Assembly (NCBI GenBank): GCA_030280995.1
Contig: JASXTE010000004.1
Location: 17,871,185-17,935,184 of the forward strand
From: Hemileia vastatrix
Taxonomy: Eukaryota; Basidiomycota; Pucciniomycetes; Pucciniales; Zaghouaniaceae
DNA length: 64,000 nt
Direction: 5' to 3'
Positions within the stretch are counted from its first letter, which is position 1. Every line of letters begins with the position of its first letter. The translations under genes and the position numbers were made by a program. The notes under the pieces are model-generated. The model ran no database searches and had not been told where the DNA came from. It saw only the letters and a list, made by a program, of their open reading frames with translations. This document shows positions 1-39,024 of this stretch, piece by piece.

Positions 1-2
1 AT

Positions 3-63
3 CCTCATTGCGGAGGAATCCATATAATTTCATAAATGTCATAGTTTATCCTCATTGCGGAGG
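3..63 (-). repeat. Two stem-loop/TAAACT motifs, element 2 pol end and 3' UTR
   Basis: Read on the minus strand, 63-42 is CCTC-CGCAAT-GAGG followed by ATAAACTA, and 16-3 is the same hairpin, with its tail running out of the window. The plus-strand element has the equivalent copies at 8793-8911. Stem of 4 bp, loop of 6 nt beginning with C and with A at position 5, as in every copy. Confidence 0.85.
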
Positions 64-1696
64 AAGACTTTGGCACTCCTGGTGCCTCTAGGATAGAACC
101 GTTTCACTTGATCGGCTGCTACCCTCTTCTTCAATACTACTCCATCCAACTCTTTTAGCACATATGAACTGCCAGAAACTTGCTCCTTGATTTTATACGG
201 TCCATTCCACCAATCTGCAAACATCTTTCCCCATTGACTCTCTAGACTTCTATTATACACCAGGACCATATCACCTGGGTTCAAAGGTTTCCTTAATCGA
301 TGTGCCAACCGCTCATCCCAATATCTGACTGATTGATTTTAAATCTTCATCATCCGTGAATATGCCTTTTCTAAATATTCTTCTTTCTTTTCTAGCTGCA
401 TCATTCTTGCACACAATAATTATTCAGTAGTTTTGACCGTGTCCCAGTCAACTCCAAGATATGATTCAGCTTCTAAATCAACCGGTAAAACTGCTTTCTG
501 TCCAAAAACAAGTTCATAAGGTGAAAATCCGGTCGTCCTTTTGGCAGTGATTCGATCAGCAAATAAAACTAAAGGTAAATAGTGCCTCCACTTTTCGGCA
601 CATGTCCCACACATTTTAACTAAAGCATCCTTAATAACTTGATGCCCTCTTTCAACCATGCCTTCAGATTCAGGATAATATGGGGTTGCTACCCTAACCT
701 TTGATCCAACTTTCAATACGGCCTCTTTAAACTCTGTCCCAAATTCAGAACCTCCATCTACCGTTACCAACTTCATCACCCCATACCTATATACCCAATT
801 ATTCAAAAAAAATTCTGCCACATTTTTGGCAGTTAAATTAATAAGAGGCACTGCCTCTACCCAACCAGATAAATCATCTCTGGCCACAATTAAATATTTA
901 TAACTTCCCTCTTTTATATGAACGGCATCTAAACTAACTCTCCCAAAGAGCGTATATTCACTGGTCGCGCGTCCAGGTTCTTTTGGCCTTAAATAAATTC
1001 GTCTTTGACATTCTTCGCATGACTGAACCCACTGTTTAACAGCAATCTTCATGCCAGGCCACCAAAATCGATCAGAAATTCTTCTAAATGTTTCTCCAAT
1101 GCCTCTATGCCCGAGATCTTCATGCAGTGATTTCAAAACTAATTCTTGCCCCTTCTGTTGAGTTATAACTACTTGAGGATTTGGATACATTCTCCTCATT
1201 AAACGTCGACCAGATAGGTAAAACGTAGATGACTTCCTCTTGATAGCCACCCATTCATCGTCTTTACAATCTTCTGGCCTCTCTAAAGTCAACAAATATT
1301 TGACTAACAAAAAATAAAAACCAGTCTGACCCCAGACTTTATCTTGAAAATCGATTAATATAACATCAATAGGGACTTCTCTATCACCAATATCACCTGC
1401 ACATGAATGAGCCAATAATCTTTGACCCCTAAATAAATCTTTAATCGAGCTATGTCGACGTTTTTCTTCTGAACCTTTGGATCCTTCATAAACCGTATTT
1501 GAAAATACCTCTTTCTCTTTATCCACCTTTTTATTTAAATTCTCTAATTCTCCAACATATACACCATTCCTTAACTTACTACTATCCCACACTACCAATC
1601 CATCTTCCTCTACATACACCACATCTTCTTCTACCTCCTCTCTGCCGAATTTATCTACACCTTTTTCAACACCTTTATTAACATAAAAACTATTTT

Positions 1697-1776
1697 CCAG
1701 TTTATCCTCTTGGTGGAGGTCATCATCACCATAATCTAAACACAATAGTCCTGCCAGTTTAACCTCATGGGGGAGG
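1697..1776 (-). repeat. Two in-frame stem-loop/TAAACTGG motifs in element 2 pol
   Basis: Minus-strand copies at 1776-1754 (CCTC-CCCCAT-GAGG-TTAAACTGG) and 1719-1697 (CCTC-CACCAA-GAGG-ATAAACTGG). Both lie inside the pol frame and are translated as LPHEVKL and LHQEDKL. They match the copies at 7078-7157 in element 1. Loops differ while the stem and the TAAACTGG tail stay. Confidence 0.85.
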
Positions 1777-2074
1777 TATGGAAAGTCTTCAGCTCCTTTA
1801 GCACTGGCTTTGATAATAGGTATATCTTCATCGAACTCTTCTGAGTCTGAATCTTCTTCAGTGGGTGGTCTCCTTGATAAACCATCTGGCATAGTAAAAG
1901 TTTTGCCAGGCTTATGAACTAAATCAAACAAAAAATGTTGAATAAAAGCTACCCATCTCGTCATGGGTGCGTTTGGTAAACTTGGGGAATTAATCATCTG
2001 GATTAACGATTTCGCATCCACTTGCAACTCAAAATGTTGCCCCCACAAAATATGCTGAATTTTCTTCAGTATTT

Positions 2075-2078
2075 TTGC
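2075..2078. other. Target site duplication, left side of element 1
   Basis: TTGC immediately precedes the LTR start TGTGGTAG. The partner at 13389-13392 is TCGC. The uninterrupted family sequence has TTGC at this place, so the right copy mutated. A 4-bp duplication is supported by the two solo LTRs of the family in this window. Confidence 0.75.
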
Positions 2079-3200
2079 TGTGGTAGCCTAAAGTTTAGTA
2101 TGGCACCTAAGTACGTAAATGGAGTTATTACGGCGTGCAAGATTGGCGTTATTATTTTTTTTATATAAGGGTTTTATTTAATTTATTGGAGTTTAAAATA
2201 TGAAGAAATTGGTCACGAGCGAATGCCTATACAAATACAATTTATTTTACGGAGAAAACTTATTTTTACCGTCTGAAAAATTTATAAGTATCAAGTCAAG
2301 TCACTCAAGAACCTTGGGAAATTTTCCCAGAATTTTTACTATTTTTCCTATAAATTTAAATGAATTTTAAAGTTTTATAGAAATATTTACGTTTTCAAAA
2401 ATTACTTAACTTTGATGAATTTTCACGGGGTAATTAGAGCTGCGCAGACTACGAAAATTAGTTTGGTATGTAAAGGGGAAGTAGCTCTATTATGTGTAAT
2501 TTTTCTAGATTTTTAATTATAGTTTTAAGGTTCTAATTGAGTCCAGAAGTCTGTACGGACTCCGCTTTGACTCCGTAAGGAGTCCGTACGGAGTCCGTAT
2601 GGGCTCCGGATTGACTCTGGAAGAGCTCTGGAGGGGAAAACTTAGGCACGTGACTAGGAATACTTAAGCGCTTCTCAAACTCGAAATTGAGAGGGGGGGA
2701 CAGAACATACAGCTTAATCATTAACCACCACAGTCTCATTTTTTATTACTCAACAAATTAAATAAATTTGTAATACCCTTATAAAGTTAAATTTTATATA
2801 TAACATTTTAGAAATACTACACAACAATTTAAATCACACTTCATACAGGGTATCTTTAGAAAGGTCTTCCTCACTGGGACTTGATTATTGCTGTCTCATA
2901 AAAATTTAAATTATTATAAAAACATAAAAGTCAATCTTTTCAGATCTTTCACTGGTACACCTTAATTGTTGTTATCAGTATTTCTTTATCAACAGCCACT
3001 TTTATTAAAATCTCAATAAGCGTTAATTATTTTAGAGTTTCATTATTTTTATCAATCAGATCCAAGTAGATTGGTTAGCTTAGTGATTTAGAATTCCCAT
3101 TTTGTTATTTTATTGGAAGGACGGGGTTTTCAGCTAAATCCACACATCTCCTCCGGATTCTGCTTACAGCAAGGCGACTGTAAGAGTTTTCCTTACCATA
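2079..3200 (+). repeat. 5' LTR of element 1
   Basis: About 1.12 kb, starting TGTGGTAGCC and ending CTTACCATA. The ends form a short imperfect inverted repeat (TGTGGTA / TACCATA), giving TG...TA rather than the usual TG...CA termini. Contains a GAGTCCGTACG minisatellite (about 2539-2625) and near its 3' end a hairpin CTTACAG-8 nt-CTGTAAG (3163-3184) shared by all LTR copies of the family. Confidence 0.93.
2539..2625 (+). repeat. GAGTCCGTACG minisatellite in the 5' LTR
   Basis: Several imperfect tandem units built on GTCCGTACGGA, which contains the palindrome CCGTACGG. Copy number differs between LTRs: the 3' LTR of the same element has lost about 44 bp here, while the solo LTR at 53745-54902 has the longest run (about 54331-54440). 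This length polymorphism is the main difference between the two LTRs of element 1. Confidence 0.8.
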
Positions 3201-3202
3201 GT

Positions 3203-3219
3203 TGGCGCCCAACGTGGGG
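3203..3219 (+). other. Primer binding site of element 1
   Basis: TGGCGCCCAACGTGGGG starts 2 nt after the LTR. Its complement ends in CCA and, extended, contains a TTCGA T-loop, as expected for a tRNA 3' end. The same site is present in element 2 at 18247-18263 (minus). The tRNA species was not identified. Confidence 0.85.
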
Positions 3220-3269
3220 TCTCGAAATCTCTAGCTTTTTCTAGGACTTAATTGGATCTAGGACTTTCT

Positions 3270-3333
3270 AAGCCTGCAAGAGGCTTATTCTCTGGAACTC
3301 TAATTGGATTTTTGTTATTGGCCTGCAAGAGGC
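3270..3333 (+). repeat. Two leader hairpins GCCT-GCAAG-AGGC
   Basis: Between primer binding site and gag, two hairpins with the same 5-nt loop GCAAG: AAGCCT-GCAAG-AGGCTT (3270-3286) and GCCT-GCAAG-AGGC (3321-3333). They recur in element 2 (18133-18195). Position and structure resemble retroviral packaging or dimerisation stem-loops (inference). GCAAGAGG is also shared with the internal hairpins. Confidence 0.75.
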
Positions 3334-3375
3334 TTGTTATTTTAACGGTTGTTAACGCTTTTCTTATGTTTTGGG

Positions 3376-4556
3376 ATGTTTTCTACTAGTGGAACTTTGT
3401 GTTGGCTGCTGGTGTACCTGTTAGGGCATCAGTAAGGATTGTATCTTGGGCTGGGCCCAAGTTTTCTGCAGATGATTTAGAAGGATTTTTACATAGGTAT
3501 GAAACTGCAGCAGCGATTGATGGTGCTTTACCTTTGGATATGGTGAAGCAGATTAGGTTCTTTATTTTGGACAGAGAGGTGGAAAAGGAGGTTATTTCTA
3601 TGGATGGTTATAAAGATCAAGATTGGAGAAAGCTCAAGATGGAAATGGAAAAAAGGTGGCCAAAAGTTTATTCATTGGAGGATCTAAAGGATATAGCTAG
3701 GAAATGGGAATCAAAAGGTGGTGTAACATCTCTGCATCAGTATCATCAGTTTATGGTTGAATTTCAGGTGGTTCTGGATTATTTGTTGGAGTATGAAATT
3801 TTATTTCATGATAATGCATCAAAGTATGTTTTTTGGGATGCTATGGGGGAAAAGGTTAAGAAAGATGTTTTGATGGTACTTATTAATGCGAATTTAATGA
3901 AGGATCTCCCAGATGGAGAAACTAGGATTCCTGGTATGGAGGTGCTAAAGAAGGCTATTTTAGAACATCTGGATACTCAAAATTCTGTTGATTTGGACTC
4001 TGGAAAAGAGGTTTTTCTTGCTCAAGAGATAGAAGAGGGCGGTTTAGAAGAATTAGCTTCTGTTAAATTTTTGGAATCAGCCATTCCTGAAGATTTTGTC
4101 CAGCCTGAAGATATTATTTTTGTTAACAATTCTGTTGGTAAAGAAGAGATTTTTGAAGATGAAGATATTGTTGTCATTAATGACAAAATTTTGGATGATG
4201 GGGATAATTTTGTGTCGAATGATTCGAAATCGGATTTAGAGGATTTTTTGCCTCAGGTTTTGTCTTCAGAAGCAGAGACTGTCTGCAATGAAGATATGGA
4301 TATGGTGGATTTGTTACAATCTCAGGGAGAGATTGTTAAGGAGGATATGGTTTTCCCTGCACTAATAAAGAGTGTAGTGGCATTTGATAATAGAGTGCAT
4401 AAATTGGATGCACTCATGTTTTGGAAAAGGGTTGTTTATTTTTTATGTCCAATGGTAGGACAAATAATGGGGGTTTATTTTTGGTGTTTATGGAATTGGT
4501 GGATAAGCCCTTGCGGCAAAATTATGGATTATCTCCAGGGGATATCAAGAATTTAA
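3376..4556 (+). CDS. Gag of element 1 (start frame damaged)
   Basis: Capsid-type Gag. The N-terminal region is clearly homologous to the element 2 Gag (VRIVSW-GPKF, RYE-AAA-DGA, DREVEKEVI). The open frame runs from about 3399 to the stop near 4556 (385 codons). The expected ATG at 3376 is in another frame, so a small indel has damaged the start. Unlike element 2, there is no CCHC zinc knuckle. The C-terminal third is acidic and then tryptophan/phenylalanine-rich and has no counterpart in element 2. Protease is also missing downstream. This looks like a chimeric or internally deleted copy. Confidence 0.8.
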
Positions 4557-4558
4557 TT

Positions 4559-4580
4559 CCTCCGAAATGAGGATAAACTA
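4559..4580 (+). repeat. Stem-loop/TAAACT motif at the gag-pol junction
   Basis: CCTC-CGAAAT-GAGG followed by ATAAACTA, right after the gag stop. This loop and tail type otherwise occurs downstream of pol (8793-8911), so a 3'-UTR-type copy sits at the point where element 1 has lost the zinc knuckle and protease relative to element 2. Confidence 0.82.
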
Positions 4581-4664
4581 CCTAAACTCGGCTGAAATTT
4601 TTTTTATCGTTATGTCTTCAATTTATTCAGGATTCAAATTATTATGGAAGCCCTCATTTTTTTG

Positions 4665-5125
4665 GGGTAGCAGGGGCTGATCACTCTAATGTTGTAATCT
4701 CTCCTCAGGATGAGATCCCGGATTGCAATAGGTCAGCTCACTTGGAGATAATTCAAGTGGATTCTCAATTATTTTCTGTTAACATTACTTTGGAGTGCAA
4801 ATACGTTTTGGACTTTATTATATGTTTATTGGATTTACCTGGTTTTTCTATTAAATTTAAAAACGGTGAAAAAGGCAAAATGGGCCAAATTAGGTTGGAT
4901 GAAAATTGGAAGGGTATGTTTTTGGACCTCCAGCAAGAGGTTAAACTGCAATTATAACCTTCTATTACGGACCTCCAGCAAGAGGGTAAACTGCGAAAAT
5001 CATATCTAAATCTGATTAAAAATCTCAGTATAATTAAAACTCAAAAAAATAATTTTTGTGAAAATTCAATTCCGGTCCTCCAGCAAGAGGTTAAACTGCT
5101 GGCTTTCTTTACGGGCAATTTACTG
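4665..5125 (+). pseudogene. Remnant of the protease-to-RT linker in element 1
   Basis: Homologous to the C-terminal part of the element 2 protease ORF, but the protease active site region itself is absent. An ORF from about 4742 ends at a TAA near 4955, where element 2 has a sense codon. The stretch contains LQQEVKL/LQQEGKL peptides encoded by three hairpin motifs (4927-5099). Confidence 0.75.
4925..5099 (+). repeat. Three stem-loop/TAAACTGC motifs before RT
   Basis: CCTC-CAGCAA-GAGG stems at 4927-4940, 4972-4985 and 5077-5090, followed by TTAAACTGC, GTAAACTGC and TTAAACTGC. The first has two further pairs outside the stem (A-T and a G-T wobble). Element 2 has the same three at 15050-15222 with one changed loop (CAGAAA). 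Spacing is 45 and 105 bp. Confidence 0.88.
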
Positions 5126-7399
5126 TTGGATAAGGGAAGCAAAGGTGTTGGAAAATCTGTTTATAAATTAGACGAGGGAAAGGAGAAAAGGGTAAAATTT
5201 AAAAATGAAATAAAATATTTTTCTAATTTTTCTTATTCCGATTCTGGCGATGAAGAAGATTCATTTGATGAAAGTTTTAATGGCAATACAAAAGAAAATG
5301 TTTTACCTCAAGTTAATTTAGATGTGGACGCAGCCAAATATAAGAAAGTAGCAAATAAAGTTCGACCTATTAATGAACCGCTACCTGCTGAATTAAATCC
5401 ACCATTGAGAAGACCAAGGTTATCAAGAGATCCTTATGAAAGTCCCTTGGTAAAGAATCCGCCCGAATTTTCTGAGACGTCAAGAATCACTTTTGAGAGA
5501 CTGGGTGTTGTTAATTTTGGACCTGATGGTTGGTTGTCTGGAGAAGAGAAGAAGTTGTTGTTGGATGTGATGGTCAAGCGAGAGAAGGCCATTGCTTTTG
5601 TAGAAGAGGAGAGGGGTGTGTTGAAGCATTCCTATGGGGAGCCTTACAAGATTCCTGTGGTATGTCATGAACCATGGCAGCAGAAACCGATTCCTATTCT
5701 GGCTGCATTGAAAGAAGCTTATATCAAAGTTGTCAGAGATCGGATACGCACTGGACTGTATGAGCAATCAACGTCAAGTTATTCTAGTCCGGTATTTTGT
5801 ATCAAGAAACCGAATGGAAAGCTTAGAGTTGTTCATGATCTTAGGGAATTAAATAGGGTTACAATAAAGGATGCTGGGATACCGCCTAGTGCTGAGGAGT
5901 TTGTTGAAGCGTTTGCAGGGAGAGTGTGTTATGGTTTGGGAGATATTATGGGAGGATATGATGAGAGAGAGTTACATCCGGACTCAAGGCCTCTCACTAC
6001 ATTCGATACACCACTTGGACGTTTACAGTTAACAAGATTACCTCAAGGAGCAACAAATTCGGTTGCAGTTTATCAAGCTCAGATGGCTTGGATCCTTCAA
6101 GACAAAATTCCACAATATGCTGGAATCTTTATAGATGATGGAGGAATTAAGGGACCAACAACCGACTATGATAACCAGGTGTTGGAAGAGAATCCCGGGA
6201 TACGCAAATTCATTTGGGAGTTTGCAATTACTTTAGAAAGAATCTTGTTTTGAATTGAAGAGGCTGGCTTAACTATTTCAGGTTCAAAATTTTCATGTTG
6301 TGTGCCAGCCTTAGAAATATTAGGTCATGTGGTATGTAGAGAGGGTAGGATTATGTCCAAGAAGAAAGTTAACAAAATTCAGTCCTGGCCAAGACCCAAG
6401 AATACAACCGAAGTTAGAGGGTTTTTAGGCGTTTGCGTATATGTTAGAATTTTTATCAAGGACTTTTCTTCATTGGAAGCTCCATTGAGACGGTTAACTA
6501 GAAAGGATGCAGACTGGGAGTGGGATGAAGAGTGTGAGAAGGCGTTTGTGAAGTTGAAGGAGGTTGTGGGGAAGGATTTAGTCCTGCACAAGTTGGATTA
6601 TGGAAAAGATTCTGGCAGAATTTATTTAGCAGTTGATTCAAGTCAGGTTGCAGCTGGGGCAGTTTTGTCTCAGATGGATAAAGCTGGTTACATCAGGCCA
6701 GTTAGGTATGAATCTGTAGTATTTACTGAGGTCGAATCAAGATATTCTCAACCAAAATTGGAATTATGTGGTGTGGCAAAAATACTGAAGAAACTTCAGC
6801 ATATTTTGTGGGGGCAACATTTTGAGTTGCAAGTGGATGCGAAATCGTTAATCCAGATGATTAATTCCCCAAGTTTACCAAACACACCCATGACGAGATG
6901 GGTAGCTTTTATTCAACATTTTTTGTTTGATTTAGTTCATAAGCCTGGAAAGACTTTTACTATGCCAGATGGTTTATCAAGAAGACCACCCACTGAAGAA
7001 GATTCAGACTCAGAAGAGTTTGATGAAGATATACCTATTATCAAAGCCAGCACTAAAGGAGCTGAAGACTTTCCATACCTCCCCCATGAGGTTAAACTGG
7101 CAGGACTATTTTGTTTAGATTATGGTGTTGATGGCCTCCACCAAGAGGATAAACTGGAAAATAGTTTTTATGTTAATAAAGGTGTTGGAAAAGGTGTAGA
7201 TAAATTCGGTAGAAAGGAGGTAGAAGAAGATGTGGTGTATGTAGAGGAAGATGGATTGGTAGTGTGGGATAGTAGTAAATTAAGGAATGGTGTATATGTT
7301 GGAGAATTAGAGAATTTAAATAAAAGGGTGGATAAAGAGAAAGAGGTATTTTCAAATACAGTTTACGAAGGATCCAAAGGTTCAGAAGAAAAACGTTGA
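5126..7399 (+). pseudogene. Element 1 pol: reverse transcriptase and RNase H
   Basis: RT of Gypsy type: KPNGKLRVVHDLRELN, LTRLPQGATNS and the catalytic FIDDGG (about 6128-6145). RNase H follows (6600-7000: LAVDSSQVAAGAVL, ESRYSQPKLELCG), then a linker with two in-frame hairpin motifs. Element 2 lacks six codons just before RNase H that are present here. Breaks: TGA at 6251 where element 2 has CAA, and TGA at 7397 where element 2 has CGA (a C-to-T change at a CpG). Confidence 0.88.
7078..7157 (+). repeat. Two in-frame stem-loop/TAAACTGG motifs in pol
   Basis: CCTC-CCCCAT-GAGG-TTAAACTGG (7078-7100) and CCTC-CACCAA-GAGG-ATAAACTGG (7135-7157), translated as LPHEVKL and LHQEDKL. The same motif outside coding sequence keeps its stem with other bases, so the peptide is probably secondary to the nucleic-acid structure. 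Confidence 0.88.
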
Positions 7400-8792
7400 C
7401 ATAGCTCGATTAAAGATTTATTTAGGGGTCAAAGATTATTGGCTCATTCATGTGCAGGTGATATTGGTGATAGAGAAGTCCCTATTGATGTTATATTAAT
7501 CGATTTTCAAGATGAAGTCTGGGGTCAGACTGGTTTTTATTTTTTGTTAGTCAAATATTTGTTGACTTTAGAAAGGCCAGAAGATTGTGAAGACGATAAA
7601 TGGGTGGCTATCAAGAGGAAGTCATCTACGTTTTACCTATCTGGTCGACGTTTAATGAGGAGAAAGTATCCAAATCCTCAAGTAGTTATAACTCAACAGA
7701 AGGGGCAAGAATTAGTTTTGAAATCACTGCATGAAGATCTCGGGCATAGAGGCGTTGGAGAAACGTTTAGAAGAATTTCTGATCGATTTTGGTGGCCTGG
7801 CATGAATATGGCTGTTAAACAGTGGGTTCAGTCATGTGAAGAATGTCAAAGACGAAGTTATTTAAGGCCAAAAGAACCTGGACGCGCAACCAGTGAATAT
7901 ACGCTCTTTGGAAGAGTTAGTTTAGATGCCGTTCATATAAAAGAGGGACGGTATAAATATTTAATTGTGGCCAGAGATGATTTATCTGGTTGGGTAGAGG
8001 CAGTGCCTCTTATTAATTTAACTGCCAAAAATGTGGCAGAATTTTTTTTTGAATAATTGGGTATATAGGTATGGGGTGATGAAGTTGGTAATGGTAGATG
8101 GAGGTCCTGAATTTGGGACAGAGTTTAAAGAGGCCGTATTGAAAGTTGGATCAAAGGTTAGGGTAGCAACCCCATATTATCCTGAATCTGAAGGCATGGT
8201 TGAAAGAGGGCATCAAGTTATTAAGGATGCTTTAGTTAAAATGTGTGGGACATGTGCCGAAAAGTGGAGGCACTATTAACCTTTAGTTTTATTTGCTGAT
8301 CGAATCACTGCCAAAAGGACGACCGGATTTTCACCTTATGAACTTGTTTTTGGACAGAAAGCAGTTTTACTGGTTGATTTAGAAGCTGAATCATATCTTG
8401 GAGTTGACTGGGACACGGTCAAAACTACTGAAGAATTATTGTGTGCAAGAATGATGCAGCTAGAAAAGAAAGAAGAATATTTAGAAAAGGCATATTCACG
8501 GATGATGAAGATCCAAAATCAATCAGTTAGATATTGGGATGAGCGGTTGGCACATCGATTAAGGAAACCTTTGAACCCAGGTGATATGGTCCTGGTGTAT
8601 AATAGGAGTTTGGAAAGTCAGTGGAGAAAGATGTTTGCAGATAGGTGGAATGGACCGTATAAAATCAAGGAGCAAGTTTCTGGCGGTTCATATGTGCTAG
8701 AAGAGTTGGATGGAGTAGTATTAAAGAAGAGGGTAGCAGCCGATCAAGTGAAACGTTTCTATCCTAGAGGCACCAGGAGTGCCGAAGTCTAA
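7400..8792 (+). pseudogene. Element 1 pol: integrase and C-terminus
   Basis: HHCC domain (LHEDLGHRG ... CEECQRR) and DDE core with D (SLDAVH), D (VDGGPEF) and E (PESEGMVERG), then a C-terminal GPY-like domain (WNGPYKI) ending near 8792. Broken by one extra T in a T9 run at about 8042-8050 (T8 in element 2) and by a TAA near 8277 where element 2 has TTA. No chromodomain is present, which separates this family from elements 3/4. Confidence 0.88.
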
Positions 8793-8911
8793 CTCCGAAA
8801 TGAGGATAAACTACAATTTTAATGACTTTTATTAAATTTATACCTCCGCAATGAGGATAAACTATGATATCAATGAAATTTTATGGATACCTCCGCAACG
8901 AGGATAAACTA
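8793..8911 (+). repeat. Three stem-loop/TAAACT motifs after pol
   Basis: Copies at 8793-8813 (CTC-CGAAAT-GAG, outer pair lost), 8843-8864 (CCTC-CGCAAT-GAGG) and 8890-8911 (CCTC-CGCAAC-GAGG), each followed by ATAAACTA. Spacing is about 47-50 bp. Confidence 0.88.
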
Positions 8912-10011
8912 TCTTCTTTTTTATCAAAATACTTTACTATCGTTATATTGTATATGGTCAACAAAACTGTGATGAAACTTTACGAAATTCAAGAAAACCT
9001 TCTTTGAAATTTTCAAAACTTAAAATTCTTTAAATATGGGTGAAGATAGTTTTGGAAAAATTTTTTTAAAAATTTATTGGAAGAAGTGTTCACAGGGGAA
9101 CCTTCTTAATTTAATATTGGCAAGTGTGGGGGTAATTGATGGGCTGGCTGCTCTATACACAATTACCCCATAATGTTCGTTTCCAAAATTTTCCCTGTTT
9201 CTAGTTTAATCCTGGCTTTGTCTTTTAATTTTAGGAAGTCCACTAAGACTATAAACTGGAACGAATCAAGAGACACAGCTCTCAATGCCGGATTCAAGAT
9301 TTTTTTATTTTATTTTTGATTTTTTTTTATGTTAGATTGTGATTTCTTTTCTTTAATATATATTATGAATTATTGTAAAGATGATGCTCACTGGTGGTCT
9401 CTAATCATTTTTATAAATTGGAGGGAGCCCACCCAGTTATCATCATTATAAAAATTATCTTCTAAAAACTTTCATTTATTTTCTTTTGTTTTCAATTTCT
9501 CAAAATTGTGTAACCACATCAAGTTGCACTTGGATGTGGGTATGATGTCAAGGGTACGGCTCATCAAATGGCCGGGGGGCATCTTTTCAAAATTTTATTT
9601 TGAAATTTTATTATTATTATTACTTTTTTTATCTTTCTTTTCACATTCATTTATCTTTCTTTAAAAATTAAAATTTAACTTTTATTTCAAAACTATCTTT
9701 TCTAAAATCATTTATTTTAAATTAAAAAAAAAAAATTAAAAATTAAAATTAAAAATAAATAAAATAAAAATAAAAATAAAAATGAAAAATAAAAAAATAA
9801 AATAGATAAATAAAAATAAAATAAAATAATTATAAAAAAATAAAAATAATAAAATAAAAAAAAAAAAATTAATTAATTAAACCAAAATTATTATATTTCT
9901 TAGTTTTATTTTTCAGTCTTCATTCTTTTTAGTTTTATTGATTTAGTTTAGACAGGAAACAGGGTCTAGGGGAACTCAATACCTATGGGATTTTACTTCT
10001 AGACATCTGTT
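8912..10011 (+). other. Element 1 3' region: hairpins and T-rich/A-rich block
   Basis: No gene on the sense strand. It holds a 10-bp-stem hairpin GGGGTAATTG-21 nt-CAATTACCCC (9129-9169), a single repeat-family hairpin AGTC-CACTAA-GACT-ATAAACTGG (9237-9259) and a hairpin CCACATC...GATGTGG (9514-9539). A T-rich block (about 9590-9720) is followed by an A-rich block (9720-9875). The same order of T/C-rich then A-rich sequence follows pol in elements 3/4. Confidence 0.7.
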
Positions 10012-10909
10012 AGTCCTCCAAGACTTTAAACTGGCTACTGTTCAAGACATTCTTTAAGGTTTTTATACATATTTTGGATCTTCTAGTCCTCCAAGACTTT
10101 AATCTGGCTACTGTTCAAGACGTTCTTTAAGGTTTTTTATACATATTTTGGATCTTTTAGTCCTCCAAGACTTTAAACTGGCTACTCTCAAGACTTTCCT
10201 TAAGGTTTTTATACAAATTTTGGTGCTGTTAGTTCTCCAAGACTTTAAACTGGCTAATTTTCAAGACTGTCATTAAAGATTTTATATTGGAGCTATTAGT
10301 CCTTCAAGACTTTAAACTGAATCTCAAGAATGTTCAAGATTTTATGGATATTTATGGGAGACGGATTTTTTATATTTTTTATTTTATCAATCAAATGTTA
10401 GGTCCACCAAGACCTTAAACTGGAGCGTATCAAATGATAGGTCCACCAAGACCTTAAACTGGACTGTTATCAAGCTGTTGGGTCCACCATGACCTTAAAC
10501 TGGATTTCTTATCGATTAAATGTTTGGTCCACCATGACTTTAAACTGGCAGTTCATTCATTGTTTTAGTCCACTATGACTTTAAACTGGAAAATTAATAT
10601 CTGCAGGATAATTCAACATTTATTGGACCACTATGGCCTTATACTGGATTACTTGTCGATCAAATGTTTGGTCCACTATGACATTAAACTGGATTATCAA
10701 ATTTATTCAATCTTCGGTCAAGCCTAGGCCTTACTTAGGAATTTATCAAGTTATTTATGCACCTAAACGATATTTGGTCCACCAAGACCATAAACTGGCA
10801 ATCGATTATATGTTTGGTCCACCAAGACTTTAAACTGGAATGTCAATCTTGTTTGGATAACTCAATTCAATCTTTTAATTTATCACTGTCCACTAAGACT
10901 CTAAACTGG
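10012..10909 (+). repeat. Array of 15 covarying stem-loops with TTAAACTGG tail
   Basis: Stems start at 10012, 10085, 10159, 10231, 10298 (AGTC/GACT or AGTT/GACT), 10401, 10440, 10481 (GGTC/GACC), 10526 (GGTC/GACT), 10567 (AGTC/GACT), 10625 (GGAC/GGCC), 10670 (GGTC/GACA), 10776 (GGTC/GACC), 10816 (GGTC/GACT) and 10887 (TGTC/GACT). Every loop is 6 nt, starts with C and has A at position 5 (CTCCAA, CTTCAA, CACCAA, CACCAT, CACTAT, CACTAA). Tail is TTAAACTGG with few changes. Spacing is 39-106 bp with unrelated spacers. A decayed copy may sit at 10716. None is translated in any recognised gene. Confidence 0.9.
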
Positions 10910-11495
10910 TTATTCAATTATTTCTGGAATTGGGTGCTGATAGCTTTAGGAGGTTAAAATTTTAGGTGGTGATGATGCTAAAGAAAGCATAATGGTTAAT
11001 TAGGTGAAATTTGTGTCGCTTTAACATGGTCTAAAGTTAAAATTATTATTGGAAGCCTGGCAAAAGTATTTTATGGGTTTGCTGTATAGCAAAGTTTGAA
11101 AATTGTGATGAAGGAATCAGAAGTTAGGATGGTAGTTGGATTTTAAGGGAATGATTTTTTTTAGTGCCTCAGTGTTAGGCCATTTTTGGTGTGAAGCTTG
11201 GAGGACCTTATGGCGAGATTGGAATCATAGAATTCGGCTCAGTGGGGGGCCCTATGAGGTTGGAATCAGGAGTATTCGGCTCATAGGAAGATCCACTCTC
11301 TCAATGCTGTGACAAGAAGGAAGACTGGTATATGGGAGTCTGAAGGGATTCAAACCTTGCTCTCAGTAGTGGAATCATCACAAGATTTATATTATATTAT
11401 TTTATGTTATATCAAGCCAGAGAAGAAAGAAAACATCATTTATGTTGAAAGTTTAAGAAGACCAAGCAAAAACAAAATTTTATCAAGTTATACTG
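10910..11495 (+). other. Element 1 3' non-coding sequence, no gene seen
   Basis: Lies between the hairpin array and the end of the antisense gene. No repeat of the stem-loop family and no protein motif recognised. A short duplicated phrase (TTGGAATCA... ATTCGGCTCA) appears near 11220-11285. Confidence 0.5.
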
Positions 11496-12125
11496 TTAGA
11501 AAAGATAATTTCTTTGAAATTGTTCAACATCATTATCAAAGCTTTGCATTAAAATTCTTCTTTTCATGAGGTCTTCATGGTTATTAGCTGGAGTTTCATG
11601 AAAATAGGCCAGCATTTTTCGTTTCAACTCATTAGTAAAGTCCAGAAAAAGATAGCGATGAAAATTTGGGTAATGATTGATATAGTCCGTCTTCACTCTA
11701 CCAACATCATCAGTGTTGGTTATTTTGACAGCTAGAAGTTCAAATATGTTATTAAGTCATAGGTTTAGTCAATTTTTATTAAATGTTTTTTTTAGTAAGA
11801 TAAATAGGGTCTTACATTTAGAGCCAGGAAACATAGTCTCAACAAAGTTAGTTGGGGGTACTGGCATTATAGGATTAGGATCTTGTGAAGGCAAAATTAG
11901 GCCGGGATCCGCTGATGAAGATTGAACTTTTGAAGCTGTTTTTGATCTTATTCGTTTTAAGAAGACAGGAATTTTGGATCGCTTTTTAGAAGTTGAGGGA
12001 TCAGGGAGAGCTGCTGGTCCTAAATATACGTTTGTTTTAGAAGGAACTATTGGCCGGTTGCATTTGAATTTTTTCACACGGCATAAGTCGCAAGCTGTCC
12101 TGCCAGGAAGATTAGGGTTGGACAT
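11496..12125 (-). CDS. Antisense two-exon gene with half zinc cluster in element 1
   Basis: Runs against the retroelement, starting 186 bp inside the 3' LTR. Exon 1 is 12125-11816 with a true ATG, intron 11815-11732 (84 bp, GTAAGA...TTCTAG), exon 2 11731-11496. Spliced length is 546 nt, 181 aa, without stops. Residues C12, C15 and C22 form C-x2-C-x6-C with basic residues between (CDLCRVKKFKCNR), as in the first half of fungal Zn(II)2Cys6 DNA-binding clusters. No second Cys triplet follows. The middle is Ser/Pro-rich and the C-terminus charged and helical. The intron can only be spliced from the antisense RNA, which would explain why it survives in a retroelement. Function unknown; a DNA- or RNA-binding role is inference. 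Confidence 0.72.
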
Positions 12126-12296
12126 TAAACAAGGTACCTGGTATCAAGCGCAGAGTTCACATGGAGCGACAAGTTCTTTGGAAGACATATTGATGAAGAT
12201 GAATTTTATAGTTGATTAAAGGGATGGTGGTTGAAGGTTAAAGATGAATATTGTGTTCGACCACTTATGCAAAGTTTTAAGAATGGGGAAATTCTC

Positions 12297-12310
12297 GATT
12301 GGAGGGAGGA
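12297..12310 (+). other. Polypurine tract of element 1
   Basis: GATTGGAGGGAGGA directly before the 3' LTR start TGTGGTAG, the expected plus-strand primer position for a Gypsy element. Confidence 0.88.
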
Positions 12311-13388
12311 TGTGGTAGCCTAAAGTTTAGTATGGCACCTAAGTACGTAAATGGAGTTATTACGGCGTGCAAGATTGGCGTTATTATTTTTTTTATATAA
12401 GGGTTTTATTTAATTTATTGGAGTTTAAAATATGAAGAAATGGGTCACGAGCGAATGCCTATACAAATACAATTTATTTTACGGAGAAAACTTATTTTTA
12501 CGGTCTGAAAAATTCATAAGTATCAAGTCAAGTCACTCAAGAACCTTGGGAAATTTTCCCAGATTTTTTACTATTTTTCTTATATTTTTAAATGAATTTT
12601 AAAGTTTTATAGAAATATTTACGTTTTCAAAAATTACTTAACTTTGATGAATATTCACGGGGTAATTAGAGCTGCGCAGACTACGAAAATTAGTTTGGTA
12701 TGTAAAGGGGAAGTAGCTCTATTATGTGTAATTTTTCTAGATTTTTTATTATAGTTATAAGTTTCTAATTGAGTCTGGAAATCCGTACGGGCTCCGGATT
12801 GACTCTGGAAGAGCTCTGGAGGGGAAAACTTAGGCACGTGACTAGGAATACTTAAGCGCTTCTCAAACTCGAAATTGAGAGGGGGGGACAGAACATACAG
12901 CTTAATCATTAACCACCACAGTCTCATTTTTTATTACTCAACAAATTAAATAAATTTGTAATACCCTTATAACGTTAAATTTTATATATAACATTTTAGA
13001 AATACTACACAACAATTTAAATCACACTTCATACAGGGTATCTTTAGAAAGGTCTTCCTCACTGGGACTTGATTATTGCTGTCTCATAAAAATTTAAATT
13101 ATTATAAAAAAATAAAAGTCAATCTTTTCAGATCTTTCACTGGTACACCTTAATTGTTGTTATCAGTATTTCTTTATCAACAGCCACTTTTATTAAAATC
13201 TCAATAAGCGTTAATTATTTTAGAGTTTCATTATTTTCATCAATCAGATCCAAGTAGATTGGTTAGCTTAGTGATTTAGAATTCCCATTTTGTTATTTTA
13301 TTGGAAGGACGGGGTTTTCAGCTAAATCCACACATCTCCTCCGGATTCTGCTTACAGCAAGGCGACTGTAAGATTTTTCCTTACCATA
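12311..13388 (+). repeat. 3' LTR of element 1
   Basis: About 1.08 kb, the same ends as the 5' LTR. The GAGTCCGTACG minisatellite is shorter by about 44 bp than in the 5' LTR. Elsewhere the two differ by scattered single bases. Confidence 0.93.
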
Positions 13389-13392
13389 TCGC

Positions 13393-14978
13393 CACACCAC
13401 ATAATTCCAATTTTGGTGGTGAATATCTTGATTCGACCTCAGTAAATACTACAGATTCATACCTAACTGGCCTGATGTAACCAGCTTTATCCATCTGAGA
13501 CAAAACCGCCCCAGCTGCAACCTGACTTGAATCAACTGCTAAATAAATTCTGCCAGCATCTTTTCCATAATCCAACTTGTGCAGGACTAAATCCTTCCTC
13601 ACAACCTCCTTCTCACACTCTTCATCCCACTCCCAGTCTGCATCCTTTCTTGTTAACCGTCTCAATGGAGCTTCCAATGAAGAAAAGTCCTTAATAAACA
13701 TTCTAACATATATGCAAACGCCTAAAAACCCTCTGACTTTGGTCGTATTCTTGGGTCTTGGCCAGGACTGAATTTTGTTAACTTTCTTCTTGGACATAAT
13801 CCTACCCTCTCTACATACCACATGGCCTAATATTTCTAAGGCTGGCACACAACAGGAAAATTTTGAACCTGAAATAGTTAAACCAGCCTCTTCAATTTGA
13901 AACAAGATTCTTTCTAAAGTAATTTCAAACTCCCAAATGAATTTGTGTATCGCGGGATTCTCTTCCAACACCTGGTTATCATAGTCGGTTGTTGGTCTTT
14001 TAATTCCTCCATCATCTATAAAGATTCCAGCATATTGTGGAATTTTGTCTTGAAGGATCCAAGCCATCTGAGCTTGATAAACTGCAACCGAATTTGTTGC
14101 TCCTTGAGGTAATCTTGTTAACTGTAAACGTCCAAGTGGCGTATCGAATGTAGTGAGAGGCCTTGAGTCCAGATGTAACTCTCTCTCATCATATCCACCC
14201 ATAATATCTCCCAAACCATAACACACTCTCCCTGCAAACGCTTCAACAAACTCCTCAGCGATAGGTGGTATCCCTGCATCCTTTATTGTAACCCTATTTA
14301 ATTCCCTAAGATCATGAACAACTCTAAGCTTGCCATTTGGTTTCTTGATACAAAATACCGGACTAGAATAACTTGAAGTTGATTGCTCATACAGTCCAGT
14401 GCGTATCCGTTCTCTGACAACTTCAATATAGGCTTCTTTTAATGCAGCCGGAATAGGAATCGGTTTCTGCTGCCACGGTTAATGACATACCACAGGAATC
14501 TTGTAAGGCTCCCCATAGGAATGCTTCAACACACCCCTCTCCTCTTCTACAAAAGCAATGGCCTTCTCTCGCTTGACCATCACATCCAACAACAACTTCT
14601 TCTCTTCACCAGACAACCAACCATCAGGTCCAAAATTAACAACACCCAGTCTCTCAAAAGTGATTCTTGACGTCACAAAAAATTCAGGCGGATTCTTTAC
14701 CAAGGGAATTTCATAAGGATCTCTTGATACCCTTGGTCTTCTCAAAGGTGGATTTAATTCAACAGGTAGCGGTTCATTAATAGGTCGAACTTTATTTGCT
14801 ACCTTCTTATATTTGGCTGCGTCCACATCTAAATAAACTTGAGGTAAAAAATTAACTTTTGTATCGCCATTACAAGTTTCATCAAGTGAATCTTCTTCAT
14901 TGTCAGAATTTGAATAAGAAAAATTAGAAAAATATTTTATTTCATTTTTAAATTTTACCCTTTTTTCCTTTCCCTCGT
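13393..14978 (-). pseudogene. Element 2 pol: reverse transcriptase and start of RNase H
   Basis: RT with LTRLPQGATNS and the catalytic FIDDGG near 14020, and the start of RNase H (LAVDSSQVAAGAVL). A TAA near 14480 replaces a GAA of element 1, and one lost G near 15014 shifts the frame between the protease ORF and pol. Six codons present in element 1 before RNase H are missing in frame. The end at 13392 is the insertion point of element 1. Confidence 0.87.
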
Positions 14979-16067
14979 CTAATTTATAAACAGATTTTCC
15001 AACACCTTTGCTTCCTTATCCAACAGTAAATCGCCCGTAAAGAAAGTCGGCAGTTTAACCTCTTGCTGGAGGACCGGAATTGAATTTTCACAAAAATTAT
15101 TTTTTTGTGTTTTAATTATACTGAGATTTTTTATTGGATTTTGATGTGATTTTTGCAGTTTACCCTCTTGCTGGAGGTCCGGAATAGAAGGAGATACTTG
15201 CAGTTTAACCTCTTTCTGGAGGTGATCAAACATACCCTTCCAATTTTTATCCAACCTAATTTGGCCCATTTTTCCTTTTTCACCGTTTTTAAATTTAATA
15301 GAAAAACCGGGTAAATCCAATAAACATATAGAAAAGTCCAAAACGTATTTGCACTCCAAAGTAATGTTAACAGAAAATAATTGAGAATCCACTTGAATTA
15401 TCTCCAAGTGAGCTGACCTATTGCAATCCGGGATCTCATCCTGAGGAGAGACTTCAACATTAGAGTGATCTGCTCCTGCTACCCCAAAAAAATGAGGGCA
15501 TCCATCCCTTTCCAACAAACATAATTCACCAGGAGCCGTCAGTTTTATATGCCTCTTCTTGGAGCAAACACAACACTGGCACAGAGTAGTAATCCCTGGC
15601 CTTGTTTCCCCACCTTCATCTCCAGGAGGCGCTAACCGCATATGTAACCTCCGCATATCTTCACCAGTTATCTCCAAACTAATCCCCATGCCAGCTTGAT
15701 ACCCTATCCTGGCCTCAAAATCCATCAAAAAAGGACCACCAAGAACAGTTTTGACTGCTTCTCTGGCCACATAAAAGTGAACCTTACCAACAGATCCACC
15801 AATGCCTAACCTGACATGCTCAGCTGTACCCATCAGCTCGGTTGCATGCCCTCCAATGCCTCTGAGGTTTCCCCCAGTTCCACTTTTAATTGGCAAGCCT
15901 ATACTCGTCGCTTGCTCCAATGAAATTAAATTAATTTGAGACCCTGAATCGACCAAGGCCTTTACTTCTTTACCATTAAGAGTTACCACCAAGTAACCCA
16001 GGGGAGCGGAAAAATGCGTATCTACATCTTCCCCAAACTTTTCAGCATTTTCACAAATATATTCCAC
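14979..16067 (-). CDS. Aspartic protease region of element 2
   Basis: Retroviral-type aspartic protease: VKALVDSGSQINLIS carries the catalytic DSG with flanking hydrophobics, and VLGGPFLMDFEARIGY is the typical second half. It is in the same frame as the upstream ORF (16754-16071), separated by a single TGA followed by GAG. TGA could come from CGA by a C-to-T change or be a readthrough stop. The C-terminal half carries two LQQE[VG]KL and one LQKEVKL peptides encoded by the hairpin motifs. The frame is lost at its end by a 1-nt deletion. Confidence 0.82.
   Translation of the reverse strand: MEYICENAEKFGEDVDTHFSAPLGYLVVTLNGKEVKALVDSGSQINLISLEQATSIGLPIKSGTGGNLRGIGGHATELMGTAEHVRLGIGGSVGKVHFYVAREAVKTVLGGPFLMDFEARIGYQAGMGISLEITGEDMRRLHMRLAPPGDEGGETRPGITTLCQCCVCSKKRHIKLTAPGELCLLERDGCPHFFGVAGADHSNVEVSPQDEIPDCNRSAHLEIIQVDSQLFSVNITLECKYVLDFSICLLDLPGFSIKFKNGEKGKMGQIRLDKNWKGMFDHLQKEVKLQVSPSIPDLQQEGKLQKSHQNPIKNLSIIKTQKNNFCENSIPVLQQEVKLPTFFTGDLLLDKEAKVLENLFIN
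15050..15222 (-). repeat. Three stem-loop/TAAACTGC motifs in element 2
   Basis: Minus-strand copies at 15222-15200 (CCTC-CAGAAA-GAGG), 15177-15155 and 15072-15050 (CCTC-CAGCAA-GAGG), each followed by [TG]TAAACTGC. They correspond one to one with 4927-5099 in element 1. Confidence 0.87.
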
Positions 16068-16070
16068 CTC

Positions 16071-16754
16071 TCAAGTGGAAACCAGACGCCTCGTCAAATG
16101 CTTCTTTTGCTTTTCAGCAAGCGCCGGACTAATCGTAAATAACTCCCCCAAAGATAAGGGAATCTGAAGTTGATTCACCCTATTCAAAACTGCGTCCATC
16201 GCATTAGCTTGACCAGAAACTACTGGCCGCTCATACTGGACCTTTGATTTAACAACCTTGGCCCTGGGTACCTCTTGAGGTCCAACCGAGCCATCTTCAC
16301 CCGCCATTATAACATCTTCACTTTCTATAACCCTAACTCTGTCACCAGCTTCTTGCACTAATCCTGATCCATCGCTAGTCCTTCTTACACCCTCCATTGG
16401 GATGGGACCGCTAAAACTTGGTCTGGGTAGAGACGCCAACGGTACGTCCTCCTCAGAATCCGAATCATCCTCTGGAATAGGCTCACCATTTAAATCAAAC
16501 TTGCCATAACTAGGGGGCCCCATATCAGCAATCCCCTTCAGCATTTTATATAATTTGTCCTTAGAGTAAGGGTTCAATTTGTTGGCGGCAGTTTGAGCAC
16601 TAGAATTCTTGTCCTTAGAGTAAGGGTTCACTTTGTTATTGGCCTTGCCAGGATTAGCCCTCAATTGGCTCTGAATGCTACTTTTCGCCTTAGTAGCGGC
16701 TGCTCTTCTAGCAGCATTAACATCGTATTCTCCAGCCATACAGCTACCCTCCAC
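16071..16754 (-). CDS. Linker ORF between gag and protease, element 2
   Basis: A 227-aa frame with Asn/Lys-rich repeats near the start (NPYSKDK occurs twice), an acidic stretch (DDSDSEED) and no recognised domain. It lies just downstream of the gag stop (16821) in another frame and runs in frame into the protease. Probably the N-terminal part of the pol polyprotein, or a Gag extension reached by frameshift. Confidence 0.6.
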   Translation of the reverse strand: MEGSCMAGEYDVNAARRAAATKAKSSIQSQLRANPGKANNKVNPYSKDKNSSAQTAANKLNPYSKDKLYKMLKGIADMGPPSYGKFDLNGEPIPEDDSDSEEDVPLASLPRPSFSGPIPMEGVRRTSDGSGLVQEAGDRVRVIESEDVIMAGEDGSVGPQEVPRAKVVKSKVQYERPVVSGQANAMDAVLNRVNQLQIPLSLGELFTISPALAEKQKKHLTRRLVST

Positions 16755-16820
16755 CTGGGCAACCGTTGCAAGATCTAAACCACCAAAAGAAGTAGAAAAC
16801 GTGGCTTTACCGACCTCTTT

Positions 16821-18089
16821 CTATTTACCTTTGTCAGCTTTTCCACCATTACCATTACCATTTTTGCCACCCTTGGCATTAACATCTTCATCCGTCACCT
16901 CTTCAAATCTGGCTCTCCTTTCAGCCGTTAAATTTCTTCTGACCAAATCAGAAGGAGACTGTCCATCACTGGGCTTGATGAACGAACCATCAGGAAATTT
17001 ATAAACTTTACCATCAAATAAAACTCGCCCAGCATCCATATCCTTATCAAGAGCAAAACAAACTGTTGCTCTGTGCCCCCTCCTATTACAATAGGAGCAC
17101 ACCTTTGGCTCATCATAGCCACCTCTATAACTACTACCACCATTCCCATCATTTCTCCCATTGCCTGGGAAGCGGTTACCATTAATATTGCCATTATAAT
17201 TTCGACGTTCATAACCCCTGGACTGATAAGAAGTCGAAATCGACGAAGAAGCGATTGGGGCCTTTTTGGCCTTCTGAGTCTCTTGAACAAATATTTTTAA
17301 CTGTTTAGTTAAATCGGCCAAATGATCAACCATCTTATTATCCACATTGCCCTCAACTTTAGCAGCAGGTAATCCCATTTGTGCCTTCTTGGCCTCCTGG
17401 GCTTTGAACATAATATCATTGTTTTCGGCCAAACCTTCACTAACCTTGCTAACATATTGAGTGCAGGACTCTTGATATTTGTCCAATGCTAATAACTTTA
17501 GATGGGCTTGAATGTTCTCTTTGATAACCTCCAGAGCCGGAAGTTTCTGCTCACCATTAGGCAGTTCCTTCATAAAATCATTTCTTGAAAGATCCTTCAA
17601 GACGTCCATATGAATATCCCTGCTGCATGCTGTCCAAAACAAATCTTTTGCTTGATTCTCATGCACTAACTCATCCACCAATATGAGATATTCCACCACT
17701 TCATCAAACTGAACACAGAGCTTTTTGAAGTCAGCCATAGAAGAAACTCCACCTTTTGCTTGCCAGTCTCCAACAATTTTATTGAGGTCCATCATAGTAA
17801 ACCTAACACCCCATCTATCAACCATAGCTTTAGAAAGCTTAACCCAATCCTTGTCCTTGAATGCCTGCATAGCAATAACCTCTTTTTCCACCTCCCTATC
17901 AGCAATAAAAAATCTAACTTGCTTCACCATGTCCACATGAGAAGCACCATCAACAGCAGCAGCAGCTTCATACCTGCTAATGAACCATTTAACCTCCTCC
18001 CCATCAAACTTTGGGCCATCCCAAGAAACAATTCTAACTGAGGGAGTAAGAGGGTTAGAAGATCCAGAAGCAACAGCAGAAGAAGACAT
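16821..18089 (-). CDS. Gag of element 2 with CCHC zinc knuckle
   Basis: A 422-aa frame with a true ATG. N-terminal capsid-like part (VRIVSWDGPKF, RYEAAAAVDGA, DREVEKEVIAM), a Gln/Lys-rich middle, an Asn/Gly-rich stretch, and a knuckle CSYCNRRGHRATVC (C-x2-C-x4-H-x4-C) at about residues 330-345. A basic Gly/Asn-rich tail follows. It binds and packages element RNA by family analogy. Apparently intact. Confidence 0.87.
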   Translation of the reverse strand: MSSSAVASGSSNPLTPSVRIVSWDGPKFDGEEVKWFISRYEAAAAVDGASHVDMVKQVRFFIADREVEKEVIAMQAFKDKDWVKLSKAMVDRWGVRFTMMDLNKIVGDWQAKGGVSSMADFKKLCVQFDEVVEYLILVDELVHENQAKDLFWTACSRDIHMDVLKDLSRNDFMKELPNGEQKLPALEVIKENIQAHLKLLALDKYQESCTQYVSKVSEGLAENNDIMFKAQEAKKAQMGLPAAKVEGNVDNKMVDHLADLTKQLKIFVQETQKAKKAPIASSSISTSYQSRGYERRNYNGNINGNRFPGNGRNDGNGGSSYRGGYDEPKVCSYCNRRGHRATVCFALDKDMDAGRVLFDGKVYKFPDGSFIKPSDGQSPSDLVRRNLTAERRARFEEVTDEDVNAKGGKNGNGNGGKADKGK

Positions 18090-18132
18090 CCCAATAAGTA
18101 ATGAAAATCGTTAACAATCAATAAAATAACAA

Positions 18133-18195
18133 GCCTCTTGCAGGCCAATAACAAAAATCCAATTAGAGTTCCAGAAAATAAGCCTCTTGCAGGCT
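18133..18195 (-). repeat. Two leader hairpins GCCT-GCAAG-AGGC in element 2
   Basis: Minus-strand hairpins at 18195-18181 (AGCCT-GCAAG-AGGCT) and 18145-18133 (GCCT-GCAAG-AGGC), between primer binding site and gag. Same loop and spacing as in element 1. Confidence 0.75.
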
Positions 18196-18246
18196 AATAA
18201 TGTTCTTGATCCAAGTAAATCTTTAAAGAAAGCTAGAGAATTCGAA

Positions 18247-18263
18247 CCCCACGTTGGGCGCCA
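18247..18263 (-). other. Primer binding site of element 2
   Basis: Minus-strand TGGCGCCCAACGTGGGG, 2 nt from the LTR end, continued by TTCGAA. Identical to element 1 over 17 nt. Confidence 0.85.
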
Positions 18264-18265
18264 AC

Positions 18266-19405: not shown

Positions 19406-19578
19406 ACGTCTTTTTTATAGTTATCTTTTTTAAGAGGGCGTCCGTTTCCTCTATACTGATGCTTTCTGCCTGGGGGTATTGTTGATCCTCCATGGTGATG
19501 TACTGGAAAGTTTTTGTTAGCTTTAGACCTGGTATTATAAGCAGGCTTTTCACTTACACTGTCCTGGGGAGCACTCAT
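19406..19578 (-). pseudogene. N-terminus of a gag-like ORF cut by element 2
   Basis: A true ATG at 19578 opens MSAPQDSVSEKPAYNTRSKA and continues for 57 codons (Lys, Arg, Gly and His rich) until the LTR of element 2 interrupts it at ACGT. A YNTRSK phrase near the N-terminus is common in fungal retroelement Gag proteins as I recall, so this is probably a third, older retroelement. The remainder would lie left of the window. Confidence 0.5.
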
Positions 19579-32852: not shown

Positions 32853-32927
32853 GTATAATTTAATTCTCTGTAGTTCTCATTCTTTGCACTACTACATCCT
32901 ATTTCAGGTGCTTTATAAATTATTAAA

Positions 32928-34115: not shown

Positions 34116-34128
34116 AGATATTTTACTT

Positions 34129-38927: not shown

Positions 38928-39024
38928 GATTCCCAGGTATAAGAATGCAAGCTCTGTTGAGCGTAAAACATACTTCCCATACTAGTTTCCCTTCTCTCTA
39001 TTTTTAATTATTTTTTAGTTTACT

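Follow-up and report, generated by a model that had tools for sequence, protein, structure and literature searches.

The 64,000-nucleotide stretch of Hemileia vastatrix DNA analyzed here (hereafter, the window; contig JASXTE010000004.1, positions 17,871,185 to 17,935,184) harbors two mutually related Ty3/Gypsy-type long terminal repeat (LTR) elements, element 1 on the forward strand and, around it, element 2 on the reverse strand, and both of them carry many copies of a single 23-nt hairpin unit. The outer stem bases of this hairpin covary, and selection acts on its nucleotides, also inside the coding parts of the elements. In the most likely reading, the hairpin would serve this Gypsy family as an RNA site acting in cis, a putative multivalent binding platform whose partner is perhaps the Gag protein of the family itself.

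Structure and Distribution of the Hairpin in the Window

The consensus of the unit is NNTC-CNNNAN-GANN-[AT]TAAACT(G/A). It consists of a 4-bp stem, whose two outer pairs are free in sequence but mostly paired and whose inner pairs, U-A and C-G, hardly vary, a 6-nt loop that has C at position 1 and A at position 5, and a tail, [A/U]UAAACU(G/A). The window contains 31 full copies (25 in element 1 and 6 in element 2), all of them on the sense strand of their own element, which can be aligned without gaps over the 23 nt; the inner-stem T-C and G-A, the loop C1 and A5, and the tail TAAACT are invariant or at least 90% conserved. A pattern scan allowing up to two mismatches retrieved 36 matches, compared to a mean of 7.0 in shuffled sequences. 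A covariance model built from the 31 copies, as proposed in the initial annotation of this DNA, recovered (by construction) all of them at E ≤ 0.002 in the 64 kb; apart from these, its best hit was the partial copy at 1-16 (E 0.66), all others having E ≥ 0.85.

In element 1 (all copies on the + strand), the first hairpin identified by the covariance model and the copy alignment (4559-4581, CCTC/GAGG) directly follows the stop codon of the gag-like open reading frame (ORF). Three more CCTC/GAGG copies (starting at 4927, 4972, and 5077; 4927-5099) are located in the coding linker between protease and reverse transcriptase (RT), and two (7078 and 7135; 7078-7157) in the coding linker between RNase H and integrase. 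Another three hairpin copies (8792, 8843, and 8890; 8792-8912) are placed at and after the integrase stop. They are followed by a single AGTC/GACT copy (9237-9259) and by two arrays embedding 15 of the 25 copies (10012-10909): array A, with five copies spaced by 67-74 nt (10012-10320; AGTC/GACT, one of them AGTT), and array B, with ten copies spaced by 39-106 nt (10401-10909; mostly GGTC/GACC, with G-U, A-T, and broken variants, the most degenerate being the copy at 10625). In element 2 (all copies on the − strand), three copies fall in the coding protease-RT linker (15050-15222), two in the coding RNase H-integrase linker (1697-1776), and one at the integrase C-terminus (41-63), while the one cut by the window edge is the partial match at 1-16.

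These data confirm and extend the initial annotation, which had described about 25 copies in element 1 and at least seven in element 2 (25, and six plus the edge-cut one), sharing one stem-loop-tail design, spread over coding parts, the gag-pol junction, and the 3' region, and ending in 15 tandem copies. Its statement that the spacers are unrelated holds in part: in array B, the motif identity is 87% and the downstream spacers average 19% (gaps counted as differences), but array A combines a motif identity of 93% with a spacer identity of 64%, and array B includes a duplicated two-hairpin unit. Element 2 exists and carries copies as reported, but the insertion of element 1 has broken it in two, and it runs on beyond the left edge of the window.

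The copies at 7135 and 10401 differ only in the four outer stem bases and in one tail base. The outermost pair is broken in some copies (A-G at 8792, G-A at 10670, and T-T at 10887). Two further loci, L020 and L047, show the 10670 and 10887 defects again; thus, at least these two are old. The window, L048, and L049 share the A-G type (ACTC/GAGG) at the site past the integrase stop, and the element 2 counterpart of copy 8792 has an intact outermost pair. A possible fifth stem pair was rejected, since the flanking bases pair in only some of the copies.

Covariation of the Outer Stem Pairs

The three stem states previously listed for the outer pairs (CC/GG, GG/CC, and AG/CT) were all retrieved: in the 23 distinct window rows, 95.7% of the 92 cells are paired, and the covariation score is 0.528, whereas shuffles score 0.169 and the best slid control scores 0.320. 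The 103 model matches from the sampled loci described below (78 of which are distinct), a set gathered by a model that itself rewards pairing, are 94.2% paired. In the 78 distinct sequences, the first pair is AU in 34, CG in 23, GC in 6, GU in 3, UA in 2, and of another kind in 10, and the second is GC in 46, CG in 27, and of another kind in 5.

Since shuffles ignore relatedness, the independent change of the two stem sides was simulated on trees (home-made null models, not R-scape). For the window copies, the observed pairing was reached in 0 out of 10,000 simulations on trees from the non-stem columns and in 12 out of 6,000 on all-column trees; pairing and both-side changes jointly were never reached (0 out of 12,000). 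For 87 distinct copies, the pairing was reached in 0 (non-stem trees) and 26 (all-column trees) out of 2,000 simulations each, and jointly with both-side changes in 0 out of 6,000.

The whole genome points in the same direction. When the 5' base of the second pair is C, the 3' base is G in 42,863 matches versus C in 314 (two in the reversed control of C-C), a contrast that counts copies and not events; among the matches listed, the 314 C-C ones are mostly scattered, with some local repeats. Moreover, a fourth stem state, TGTC/GACA, is present in 506 genomic copies and in none of the reversed control. Because these copies have several different loops (CGTGAT, CATGAT, CTCTAT, and CCCCAA, among the matches listed), the data suggest that this state has more than one origin. 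The locus L050, whose pol segments are 50-73% identical, harbors TGTC/GACA at 3935 and 4001 (varied tail) in its RNase H-integrase linker, together with CGTC/GACA at 3968, in which the outer pair is broken; when the frame is read by eye, the L050 linker hairpins put Val in the place of Leu and Asp in that of Glu.

Copies Inside Coding Regions

Fifteen relatives were included in the protein alignment (out of 162 matches, 120 of which listed), and 13 of them cover the RNase H-integrase linker. None of these 13 proteins (from Puccinia, Austropuccinia, and metagenomes) has the long stretch of this linker that contains both hairpins, and the RNase H-integrase linker hairpins thus lie in a lineage-specific addition to pol.

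At the six coding sites of element 2, the conserved Leu is preceded by H, D, V, Y, D, and F, respectively, yet the codon of this preceding residue ends in C in all six cases, C-ending codons accounting for 10% in the ORFs of this element. The Leu itself is always encoded by CTC (8% usage) and the Glu always by GAG (40% usage). The product of these synonymous choices is 10^-13.9 under independent choice, a figure that is too generous given tandem duplication, since the sites are taken as independent, and that derives from a usage table including the motif codons.

A second line of evidence comes from the comparison between subfamilies. In the protease-RT linker, the motif is 80-91% identical versus 41-52% for the rest when the window, L020, or L048 elements are compared with L029 or L039. 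Between close relatives, the difference is small, as in the two window elements (99% for the motif versus 89% for the rest), or even reversed, as in L020 and L048 (see below). The contrast is weaker in the RNase H-integrase linker, with motif and rest at 84% and 56% (window vs. L029), 63% and 62% (L036 vs. L041), and 49-53% and 39-48% (L050), respectively, partly due to a poor alignment placement of the L036 and L050 copies. Rare codons are fixed whatever the residue, and the motif is kept where the linker DNA diverged between subfamilies; for these reasons, we conclude that selection acts on the nucleotides of the hairpin, also inside coding parts.

Abundance and Association with the Element Family

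The core pattern TCCNNNANGANNWTAAACT has 117,465 exact matches in the 747,610,610 bases of the source genome (58,593 on the forward and 58,872 on the reverse strand), compared to 45 (28 + 17) for the reversed control pattern; such genome-wide pattern counts may be lower bounds. The covariance model was then run on 28 sampled loci (L040 and L043-L046 were omitted because of their overlap with others), 11 of which hold the 103 model matches at E ≤ 1. Nine of these 11 loci also have a tblastn match to proteins of the family, and no such match (E ≤ 1e-3) was retrieved from any of the 17 loci without the motif. The protein match of L047 is weak (30%) and lies away from the motif copies; this locus, which comprises the 10 kb to the left of the window, is the continuation of element 2 and contains 13 copies by pattern and 14 by model, in the same order as in the 3' region of element 1. 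As for the two remaining motif loci, L042 follows L041 downstream, on the same strand and at a distance of about 0.6 kb, whereas in L051 neither pol nor any tblastn match to the family proteins accompanies the motif copies. When the initial 10 kb of each of 20 contigs were scanned, three contigs showed clear copies, and two more a single weak look-alike each, not listed by the model.

The hairpin recurs at homologous positions of the elements, and the copies are on the sense strand of pol at every locus where pol adjoins them; in L036, further copies form another set on the − strand, and the part of this locus that was read shows no pol next to them.

The Carrier Elements and Other Features of the Window

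Element 1 (2079-13388, +), whose coding frames are interrupted, was delimited through self-BLAST, ORFs, and Pfam matches (RVT_1, RNase H, and integrase H2C2). Its 5' LTR (2079-3200, +), with a primer-binding-like site at 3203, and its 3' LTR (12311-13388, +) are 94.4% identical according to self-BLAST. In the self-comparison, window positions 1-2078 match the reverse complement of 8858-6776, and 15505-13391 matches 4644-6777, from which it follows that element 1 was inserted into element 2. The two halves of the latter, both on the − strand, are 19409-13389, embedding the LTR, gag, protease, and RT (ORFs, self-BLAST, and Pfam), and 2078-1, corresponding to the RNase H-integrase part (ORFs, self-BLAST, and L047), which extends past the left edge of the window.

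The carrier has the features of a Ty3/Gypsy element, i.e., a pair of LTRs and the pol order protease-RT-RNase H-integrase, the protease being taken from element 2, where Pfam matched an aspartic protease, and the rest from element 1. The pol of element 1 is split over several ORFs, and its interrupted frames were analyzed as they stand, without repair. By eye, no protease was found between its gag-like ORF and RT, whereas element 2 has one. The gag-like ORF (3399-4556) has kept the N-terminal part of Gag, with a different C-terminal part, acidic and then hydrophobic; it shares 48% identity with the element 2 Gag over 185 residues and then diverges. The element 2 Gag carries a CX2CX4HX4C motif (by eye), and Pfam did not match either protein. 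The ORF following gag in element 2 contains a duplicated stretch encoding NKxNPYSKDK (16555-16637, −), and in the 3' region of element 1, a cysteine-rich antisense stretch (11900-12250, −), Zn2Cys6-like by eye, is perhaps a captured host fragment.

Relatives of the carrier were found in Puccinia and Austropuccinia, with 45-63% identity (among the 120 matches listed out of 162). The search for relatives of the protease and gag proteins did not retrieve any, nor did the search of viral contigs with the integrase ORF and with an alignment; a DNA pattern matched 17 stretches of viral contigs once each, which were taken as chance. The search of genome contigs retrieved one distant relative (35% identity), which was left out of the analysis.

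Identical short hairpins, GCCTGCAAGAGGC, occur twice in the 5' leader of both window elements (3272-3284 and 3321-3333, +; 18194-18182 and 18145-18133, −). They were considered as a related signal and set aside, being absent from the leader of the relative in L029. Elsewhere in the window, a second family of LTR elements is represented by inverted partner copies about 83-89% identical, with long A/T-rich repeats (32049-38927 and 40519-44692); a check of this LTR element (32040-38940) for a comparable dispersed motif retrieved only low-complexity repeats and three two-copy families. Lastly, a cluster of short direct and inverted repeats, in pieces of about 0.1-0.5 kb that are 65-90% identical, is located at 59700-61660.

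Possible Function and Alternative Explanations

In principle, the 23-nt unit could act as RNA or as DNA. We consider RNA likelier than cruciform DNA, because the copies are sense-only wherever pol adjoins them. Single non-Watson-Crick pairs, in the raw counts, are G-U in 9 cases, A-C in 6, and others in 26; once the rows judged by eye to be outside the family are set aside, G-U (8) and A-C (2) remain, a difference that is at most suggestive. Several stem-loops with shared recognition bases do occur across the element, as would be expected of a dispersed signal that folds in RNA.

According to the tentative reading proposed above, the unit would act within the RNA of the element, and about 25 copies per RNA would provide multivalent binding to one protein. 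An element-encoded partner, with Gag as the first candidate, is favored because the motif is restricted to the family in the sampled loci. Bound by Gag, the sites might mark and condense the genomic RNA during particle assembly, a selective condensation that multivalency would favor, and they might also allow defective elements like element 1 to be carried along in trans. A more ambitious version, about which we are doubtful, is that this LTR family evolved a distributed RNA code, in which a hairpin-plus-tail repeated about 25 times per RNA, and fitted in frame into pol linkers that grew to accommodate it, would serve as a multivalent assembly signal and, with its more than 100,000 genomic copies, would form a large reservoir of binding sites for the partner.

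Several observations weigh against the Gag-platform reading. When seven copies were folded in a short context, the hairpin was the minimum-energy structure in five, and the z-scores ranged from -2.41 to 0.80, two out of seven being positive; isolated folding is therefore weak, and the stem is so short that its stability would probably need a partner. The two covariation measures least inflated by relatedness show no excess over shuffles: pairs with both-side change were 2 vs. 2.0 in either set, a number that cannot exceed the shuffles with only two variable pairs, and further pair types were 5 vs. 6.2 in the window and 7 vs. 7.3 in the model matches. On stem-weighted trees, the observed pairing alone was reached in 42 out of 6,000 simulations for the window copies and in 99 out of 2,000 for the 87 distinct copies; of the latter, 11 lack pairing at pair 1 and 5 at pair 2. 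Most copies are related through element replication and tandem duplication, and L020 and L048, which are closely related, differ more within the motif than around it, with identities of 89% vs. 94% in the protease-RT and 91% vs. 98% in the RNase H-integrase linker. As for the partner, no zinc knuckle was seen by eye in the gag-like ORF of element 1, and on most points, a host protein would account for the data just as well. The earlier suggestion of selection on a folded sequence stands on the tree simulations, the TGTC/GACA copies, the C-G over C-C contrast, and the codon constraint, but not on the two shuffle measures; regarding the opposite possibility, i.e., a few ancestral duplications with no paired changes, paired changes are present, although independent events are few.

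The same RNA site might instead be read by a host RNA-binding protein acting in the nuclear export, localization, translation, or stability of the long element RNA. A host protein for export, localization, or stability is nearly as likely as Gag: the arrays lie downstream of the integrase stop, a typical place for host-read signals, and loop-plus-tail recognition with a free stem is common among hairpin binders. Retrotransposon stem-loops read by the host also appear in the literature. On the other hand, the motif accompanies the family proteins in nine out of 11 loci and is absent from all 17 loci without them, host mRNAs not having been searched as such. A site working at the DNA level, either as an insulator-like array for a DNA-binding protein or as cruciform DNA, appears improbable. 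Arrayed protein sites are known in a retrotransposon, Drosophila gypsy, but the sense orientation of the copies beside pol speaks against this explanation, and so do the outer bases: rather than forming a duplex motif conserved without base-paired covariation, as in a Su(Hw)-like array, they vary and covary.

The tail might act through base pairing or modification, given that it is nearly invariant, that AAACU fits a consensus for N6-methyladenosine, and that UUAAACUG is complementary to a stretch of U2 small nuclear RNA; this would leave the covarying stem and the fixed loop bases unexplained, and we regard it as very unlikely. Passive duplication, with copies alike only because they were recently duplicated, agrees with the tandem duplications and the spacer homology of the arrays, but the identities of motif and spacers already contradict it; the motif was conserved while the spacers and, between subfamilies, the linkers decayed, and the other stem states remain mostly paired, which makes this explanation more unlikely still. 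The least credible of all is a selected peptide motif, L/V..E/D.KL, with the hairpin as its by-product. The coding copies of both window elements do share one frame, read as L..E.KL, and the linker copies of L050 read V..D.KL (by eye); nevertheless, the motif persists in non-coding arrays, whose spacings fail to preserve the frame, rare synonymous codons are fixed at stem positions, and the peptide is absent from 13 out of the 15 aligned relatives, namely those covering the RNase H-integrase linker. A loose [LV]xx[ED]xKL match, at any position, was found in seven of the 120 database proteins listed (of 162), and conservation is not confined to the amino acid level.

Comparison with Known Systems

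Except in a small number of models from yeast and retroviruses, the selection and packaging of their own RNA by LTR retrotransposons are poorly characterized. In this respect, the 25 copies of element 1, together with the more than 100,000 genomic ones, represent a ready natural library for finding the partner, and the hairpin shows how protein-coding linkers have been bent to the needs of a nucleic-acid signal. Among the open-licence papers listed, a scope that makes this weak evidence, no account of a comparable hairpin family in LTR retrotransposons was found.

The Su(Hw) array of Drosophila gypsy is a DNA motif bound by a zinc-finger protein. Like the present one, it is an array of one short motif in a Gypsy element; it differs in being a DNA motif, placed near the 5' end, whereas the hairpins described here covary and lie in pol and in the 3' region. 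The Egl-BicD localization hairpins of Drosophila retrotransposons are likewise retrotransposon stem-loops, read by a host protein; these signals are one or a few, compared to 25 copies with a fixed tail. Retrozymes with hammerhead ribozymes share with our elements a structured RNA repeated in a retroelement, and differ in that no Rfam family matched window 1-20000 at E ≤ 1.

Conceptually, the closest systems would be the dispersed packaging signals of single-stranded RNA viruses (MS2, satellite tobacco necrosis virus, and parechovirus), in which many degenerate stem-loops with shared loop features are proposed to act jointly. Those viral signals reportedly make contact with capsid proteins and follow another loop rule than the present hairpins, which reside in an LTR retrotransposon and for which Gag is a candidate partner.

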